This document shows positions 710-1,010 of a stretch of DNA of 41,235 nt, piece after piece. The stretch covers positions 1 through 41,235 of the forward strand of contig JAJRZA010000069.1 in assembly GCA_024275485.1 (NCBI GenBank). Direction: 5' to 3'. The position numbers and the translations under genes are program-made. How positions within the stretch are numbered: position 1 is the first letter of the stretch; every line of letters starts with the position of its first letter. Source of the stretch: Candidatus Krumholzibacteriota bacterium (GTDB lineage Bacteria > Krumholzibacteriota > Krumholzibacteriia > LZORAL124-64-63). The notes below the pieces were generated by a model, which did not search any database, was not told the DNA's origin, and saw nothing but the letters and a program-made list of their open reading frames with translations.

Positions 710-740
710 AAAAAAACCACCGAGCGGCAGGCCGGGTGGT
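710..740 (-). terminator. intrinsic terminator (attenuator) in the met-gene leader
   Basis: On the minus strand ACCACC (740-735) pairs with GGTGGT (721-716). After one mismatch the inner bases extend the stem by about three more pairs with a 5-base loop, and T residues at 715-710 follow directly. It lies after the leader ORF and 36 bases before the start codon of the PLP-enzyme gene, so it would stop transcription before the structural gene. Its 5' arm is also the target of a competing upstream segment. Confidence 0.8.
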
Positions 741-850
741 GTGCTTCCCTGGAAAATGCTTCCCTGGGGATGTTCAACATGTCGGATCAATCAGTTCAGG
801 TCAGATCATCCTCCTATGCGAACGCACAGCACCCGGCCACGGCATGGCCA
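716..850 (-). promoter_or_regulatory. alternative RNA hairpins of a Met-leader attenuator
   Basis: Four segments with the classic 1:2, 2:3, 3:4 logic can be read. Segment 1, GGCCA at 849-845, overlaps the last clustered Met codons. Segment 2 is TGGCCGGGTG at 839-830, segment 3 CACCCGGCC at 738-730 and segment 4 GGTGGT at 721-716. Segments 1 and 2 form a 5-bp protector hairpin. Segment 2 (GGCCGGGTG) is a perfect 9-bp complement of segment 3, an antiterminator. Segments 3 and 4 form the terminator. A ribosome stalled on the Met codons would cover segment 1 and free segment 2. The complementarity is seen; the mechanism is inferred from his/trp/leu-type attenuators. Confidence 0.65.
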
Positions 851-920
851 TGGACATGTCCATCATGGAACCCATGGTGGTGTGGTTCAGGTGATTCAGC
901 TGTGGATGATTCAGGTGCAC
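801..920 (-). CDS. Met-rich leader peptide (39 aa)
   Basis: A short ORF starts at GTG (920-918), six bases after a strong GGAGG (931-927), and ends at TGA (803-801). Its second half, MGSMMDMSMAMPWPG, carries six Met codons within eleven residues, and a seventh lies near the end (RRMI). The first half is HLNHPQLNHLNH. It lies between a good promoter and an intrinsic terminator in front of a Cys/Met-metabolism gene, the standard layout of an amino-acid attenuator, with Met codons as the sensor. An internal ATG at 875 is in frame but lacks a ribosome site, so the GTG is preferred. The peptide itself probably has no function beyond being translated. It has the same strand as, and lies about 125 bases before, the gene at 33-674. 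Confidence 0.75.
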   Translation of the reverse strand: MHLNHPQLNHLNHTTMGSMMDMSMAMPWPGAVRSHRRMI

Positions 921-981
921 TGTGTTCCTCCGCCGAAGCGGTTGGTTGTTGGGCCGGATTTATCCGGTTGATTGATCGGGT

Positions 982-1010
982 AACTTAGGGACTTCTTCGG
1001 TATCTGTCAA
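982..1010 (-). promoter_or_regulatory. sigma70-type promoter of the Met leader
   Basis: On the minus strand a perfect -35 TTGACA (1010-1005) is followed after 17 bases by TAAGTT (987-982). Transcription would begin near 975, about 55 bases before the leader GTG. This fits a promoter serving the leader peptide and the gene behind it. Confidence 0.6.

Follow-up and report, generated by a model that had tools for sequence, protein, structure and literature searches.

The window analysed here, by which we mean the entire stretch of 41,235 nucleotides, carries on its minus strand at positions 142–674 the 5' part of a gene for a cystathionine gamma-synthase (CGS)-like PLP enzyme (PF01053, E 4e-53), in line with the methionine-linked PLP family named in the initial annotation. 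The gene starts with an ATG at 674, preceded by the Shine-Dalgarno sequence AGGAG at 687–683. Its intact orthologues are 391 to 411 amino acids long, and for the full-length orthologues the best NCBIfam model is cystathionine gamma-synthase, with a score below the model cut-off. At about position 141 the gene is broken by a repeat at the contig end (1–141, no strand assigned), which also occurs terminally on contigs C55 and C20. The remaining 3' part lies on another contig of the assembly, C78 of G000, with an overlap of 124 nt and is followed there by an overlapping gene for a fused aspartokinase-homoserine dehydrogenase. Since the gene continues without interruption on C78, the repeat is either an insertion carried by some members of the population or the product of an assembly join. 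Judged from its genes, CGS-like and aspartokinase-homoserine dehydrogenase, the operon is part of the methionine branch. In 78 genomes of Krumholzibacteriota no MetX of the TIGR01392 type was found with an E-value limit of 1e-40.

Upstream of this gene, between positions 710 and 1010, the minus strand carries a leader for which all parts of a transcription attenuator had been proposed, and re-reading of the coordinates in the sequence confirmed each part at its place. The promoter (982–1010), of the sigma70 type, consists of TTGACA at 1010–1005, a spacer of 17 nt and TAAGTT at 987–982. TAAGTT is a weak -10 box, which is why a simple promoter scanner called no promoter in the window leader; yet all nine orthologous loci that reach far enough have a promoter at the same place, with the consensus TTGAC(A/G/C)-17/18-TAGATT/TAGAAT/TATCTT/TAACAT. 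A Shine-Dalgarno sequence GGAGG (927–931) is located 6 nt ahead of the GTG at 920, which opens a leader ORF of 39 codons (801–920, stop codon TGA at 803–801) for the peptide VHLNHPQLNHLNHTTMGSMMDMSMAMPWPGAVRSHRRMI. Six of the eleven codons for residues 16–26 (843–875) are Met codons, as the initial annotation had noted, and when the region was shuffled 20,000 times with its dinucleotides preserved, no ORF with six Met in eleven codons appeared.

The 3' half of the leader can adopt two alternative folds. The predicted protector hairpin P0 (837–853, CCAUGGC-CAU-GCCGUGG) is formed by the last Met codons and the first part of the antiterminator 5' arm. This arm, GGCCGGGTGCTGTGC at 824–838, is the partner of the 3' arm GCACACCACCCGGCC at 730–744. 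A perfect antiterminator of 9 bp had been claimed; the match of GGCCGGGTG with CACCCGGCC is indeed exact in the window, but the helix is longer than that, with GGCCGGGTG-C-TGTGC (838–824) facing GCACA-C-CACCCGGCC (744–730) in 14 of 15 pairs and a C-C mismatch as the only unpaired position. Between the two arms a further inner hairpin, P2 (772–823), pairs GUUC at 823–820 with GAAC at 775–772 (95% of cells paired in 10 sequences), and its loop contains a GGAGG-like sequence as well as the stop codon of the leader. Also between the arms lies a conserved ACAUCCUGAGGGAAG stretch (775–741, minus strand), and AGGGAAGCA is duplicated in the genome of the window. The intrinsic terminator (710–740) has the stem ACCACC...GGUGGU followed by seven U and was also picked up by a simple terminator scan. 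Its strand 740–735 lies inside the antiterminator 3' arm, so that the two helices are mutually exclusive. Folded alone, the whole window leader is only slightly more stable than its shuffles (z = -1.56), and the case is therefore carried by the comparative evidence.

We found the arrangement kept at all ten orthologous loci identified, which belong to five genera and two families of Krumholzibacteriota (G000, G001, G003, G004, G009, G007, G022, G013, G030 and G041; all source genomes are MAGs of uncultured organisms). The nine other orthologues are 59–80% identical to the window gene, and two of the orthologue genomes belong to the same genus as that of the window. An in-frame homologous leader ORF with clustered Met codons is present at every one of the ten loci, the complete ORFs carrying 5 to 9 Met (the leader of G004 is truncated where its contig ends); examples of the peptides are MYQRRSNSNNAHMGIMRMQMLMTMVMAMPWPGAVRSSGRLI, MSANLHTNCSRMMMRMPMAMSMPGPGSCLFVGREDR and VKHFVSGTNAQAMMAMTEAMAMPWPVRCAFPRRTIR. 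The N-terminal residues vary and the His/Leu/Asn-rich part of the window peptide is not kept among the orthologues, while the Met cluster is constant. An AGGA/GGAG-like sequence precedes the leader start in several relatives. The 5' arm differs by 1 nt in length between groups, and this is compensated by 2 nt before the stop codon, which is thereby kept within the P2 loop. All ten sequences share a mismatch about midway along the antiterminator, with C opposite a pyrimidine or an A.

In the related genomes the stems covary and the Met codons cluster, which supports the original proposal. In alignment A3 the antiterminator together with P2 has 98.1% of its cells paired, with six pairs changed on both sides, and it exceeds the shuffles on every measure (0/500 reach its values, a count which is not to be read as a probability as the Krumholzibacteriota sequences are related). 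When the partners are slid by one base, pairing falls to about 41–44%. The true arm partners have a mean energy of -32.5 kcal/mol as against -24.7 kcal/mol for swapped arms, and none of 100,000 permutations was as good. In the terminator 96.7% of cells are paired, with one A-U/G-C switch (5 AU and 5 GC); the base that switches in the 5' strand of the terminator covaries with the 5' arm of the antiterminator as well, and one base therefore serves two alternative helices. For P0 the basis is folding rather than covariation: the protector hairpin of the initial annotation is predicted as a local hairpin in all ten Krumholzibacteriota folds, in each of which the Met-codon region is paired with GGCC of the 5' arm or with bases next to it. 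Taken together, comparison of the sequences supports the ORF, its Met clustering, the mutually exclusive helices and their covariation, and also the restriction of the element to this operon, as the following searches indicate.

A covariance model (R1) run over 80 genomes of the phylum recovered one true copy per genome, always before the CGS-like gene. One match in G005 (L133, E 5e-4) proved to be only the terminator of another gene, and extra matches in the genome of the window had E values above 1. The element is missing before near-relative genes, before other members of PF01053 and before metH, and none of 27 regions upstream of metH in Krumholzibacteriota contained a Met-rich ORF (4 or more Met in 12 codons). 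No Rfam family, including the SAM riboswitch classes and T-box, matched the window leader or the orthologous leaders. This last result also bears on whether the RNA could switch independently of translation, as a riboswitch of an uncharacterized kind or through a protein-bound antiterminator, with the ORF being incidental. In favour of such a switch are the conserved C-C or pyrimidine-C mismatch and the ACAUCCUGAGGGAAG sequence between the arms, both of which plain attenuation leaves unexplained. We nevertheless regard it as very unlikely, as the ATG runs share one frame with the start and the stop codon and the indels keep that frame, and as the leaders match no Rfam family.

The reading we favour, with a rough probability of 0.85, is that of a ribosome-mediated transcription attenuator which would sense methionine, as charged elongator tRNA-Met, before the CGS-like/aspartokinase-homoserine dehydrogenase operon. 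Transcription would begin at the promoter at 1010–982, and a ribosome would translate the Met-rich leader ORF behind the RNA polymerase. With sufficient Met-tRNA the ribosome would pass the Met codons and P0 could form behind it; the 5' arm would then be unavailable, the 3' arm would join the terminator and transcription would end before the operon. With charged elongator tRNA-Met being scarce, the ribosome would stall on the Met codons and P0 could not form, leaving the 5' arm free to form 14 of 15 bp with the 3' arm, together with P2 or a UUC:GAA extension. This antiterminator would block the terminator and the operon would be transcribed. The distance from the beginning of the last Met codon to the 5' arm is 7 nt, and the stop codon is about 20–22 nt beyond the arm. 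From the sequence and the usual footprint of a ribosome it can be derived that a ribosome held at an earlier Met codon would sit on the 5' strand of P0, with the arm remaining accessible, while one at the stop codon would leave P0 free to form. The stalling itself, the direction of the response, the specificity for Met and the role of P0 are inferred. Very probably the switch allows the operon to be turned on by the cell in times of methionine shortage. A slowdown of any kind in the leader would affect the fold likewise, and the attenuator could for this reason be thought to read the general speed of translation instead of methionine; but the other leader residues vary freely while the Met codons are kept, and the operon is methionine-related, which makes that reading exceedingly improbable.

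Outside Krumholzibacteriota, relatives of the gene with Met-rich leaders ending in MPSPGAG were noticed at two Phycisphaerales loci (L077, L081). A search of the same order added L146–L152, for example with the leader MVDSLHIATDMMMSMPSPGAGVVSCGWLGVAVC. In total ten loci in Planctomycetota (Phycisphaerales and relatives) have Met-rich leaders and long-range arms before a CGS gene of their own. The leader of L174, also from this search, is MQMPMHMRSGMGALMPMRSPIAVA, and its arms are altered yet complementary (GCCCGATCG/CGATCGGGC). In the protein tree the Planctomycetota loci form one clade (100/99) apart from the Krumholzibacteriota clade (96/96), and leaderless groups stand between the two. Where checked, a homoserine dehydrogenase gene lies next to CGS in the Planctomycetota loci; homoserine dehydrogenase continues the operons of both lineages. 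The long-range pairing is kept to 97% with an invariant core, in which the MAFFT alignment of the Planctomycetota loci gave no covariation, and RNAalifold prefers a local hairpin in this set; the attenuation mechanism is therefore proposed with less confidence here. The arm-swap test was weaker than in Krumholzibacteriota (408/100,000), and the hairpin after the 3' arm is followed only by a weak U tract and is not a strong terminator, which leaves termination in this clade uncertain. A covariance model of this second form found 4 of 392 Planctomycetota genomes, with one match each, and a Met-rich ORF (4 or more Met in 12 codons) was absent from 60 other CGS/PF01053 upstream regions in the order of the second clade. 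The leader ORFs of L138, L139 and L146–L152 start only 2–11 nt after the -10 box, which makes translation from mRNA with little or no leader probable. In another Planctomycetota lineage an isolated candidate Met leader, MQRSSRLPLMKTQMLGMWKYMLCPGLGGRTRV, was seen upstream of position 3001 of L053. Other Met-rich short ORFs before CGS genes (Leuconostoc L093/L097, L090) are without an MPxPG end, partly hydrophobic, and look unrelated.

Nearly every leader of the two phyla has MP(W/G/S)PG after its last Met. This could point to an arrest by the nascent peptide, in which the conserved Met-Pro-x-Pro-Gly would stall the ribosome, with SAM, Met or another ligand as the signal, and the stall would set the RNA fold, for a purpose analogous to that of the MTO1 region of plant cystathionine gamma-synthase. 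The antiterminator arm, however, requires CCGGG, so that the PG may be a constraint of the RNA, and there are exceptions with MSSPG in L152, MRSPI in L174 and MPWPV in L016. Past the motif there is no conservation of residues, and from one genus to another this part is even translated in a different frame register, the constant feature being the Met cluster upstream of the motif. We therefore consider peptide arrest unlikely and retain stalling on the Met codons as the preferred reading.

Attenuation by leader peptides is established for Trp, His, Thr, Leu, Ile/Val and Phe, in some reports also for Cys and others, while control of methionine genes in bacteria is usually attributed to SAM riboswitches, T-boxes or repressors. 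As in trpL, hisL, thrL, leuL, ilvL and pheL of Proteobacteria, the leader described here has a short ORF that looks translated and in which codons for the product of the pathway are clustered (10/10 orthologues), a predicted protector hairpin involving these codons that competes with antiterminator and terminator, and downstream a biosynthetic operon in the pathway of the amino acid sensed. It differs from these classical attenuators in the amino acid proposed to be sensed and in its occurrence in Krumholzibacteriota and possibly Planctomycetota, and no relation to Rfam leader families was found. SAM-I, SAM-IV and SAM-I/IV riboswitches likewise control methionine genes, including PF01053 members, and often do so by transcription termination, but no aptamer was found in the window leader. 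T-box (Met) leaders of Firmicutes, also with terminator and antiterminator, would sense uncharged tRNA-Met; here there is no Rfam T-box match and sensing is predicted to proceed through translation. The closest report is that of the metL leader before metNIQ in S. lividans (PMC8079986), whose peptide has also been proposed as a methionine sensor. According to the passages of that paper considered here, MSTTSDRTPATEATTTPGARCMCRRMCAF has only two Met besides the start, interleaved with Cys, and the leader is leaderless and precedes a transporter; the authors note the lack of a typical Rho-independent terminator, and these passages show no conservation of the leader. Seliverstov et al. 2005 (PMC1262725) found no conserved RNA structures before methionine operons of Actinobacteria, and the exchange of sensors among leader peptides, T-boxes and riboswitches in general was treated by Naville and Gautheret (PMC2965389). 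Apart from the weak claim for metL, no conserved methionine attenuator was described in the literature found, a search which covered few subscription journals, and Met-sensing ribosome-stalling attenuators appear to have hardly been described before.

SAM-I riboswitches (RF00162) were not found in 58 Krumholzibacteriota relatives. Before two sister CGS genes within the same family of bacteria we found, at the position taken by the leader, a SAM-I/IV-like element (L017 1579–1726 and L019 2159–2286, both minus strand) which scores below the Rfam cut-off (30.9 and 27.1 bits, cut-off 41.1) and is apparently a divergent SAM aptamer. A lookalike of this element is located upstream of the gene in L051, from a Phycisphaerales bacterium. 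We think it rather probable that Met-specific ribosome-stalling attenuators are a real class which arose or was transferred more than once, in Krumholzibacteriota and in the clade related to Phycisphaerales, replacing SAM riboswitches before CGS/homoserine dehydrogenase operons, with a common antiterminator core GSCCGGGYG-C and an M-P-x-P-G end that possibly aids the stall. A conserved Met-codon attenuator would extend the mechanism to phyla for which no description was found so far, and would fill a gap among the amino acids sensed by leader-peptide attenuation. As the relatives lack SAM-I and sister genes carry the SAM-I/IV-like element, a change of sensor is suggested, in which comparable genes of one bacterial family would respond to charged tRNA-Met instead of SAM.
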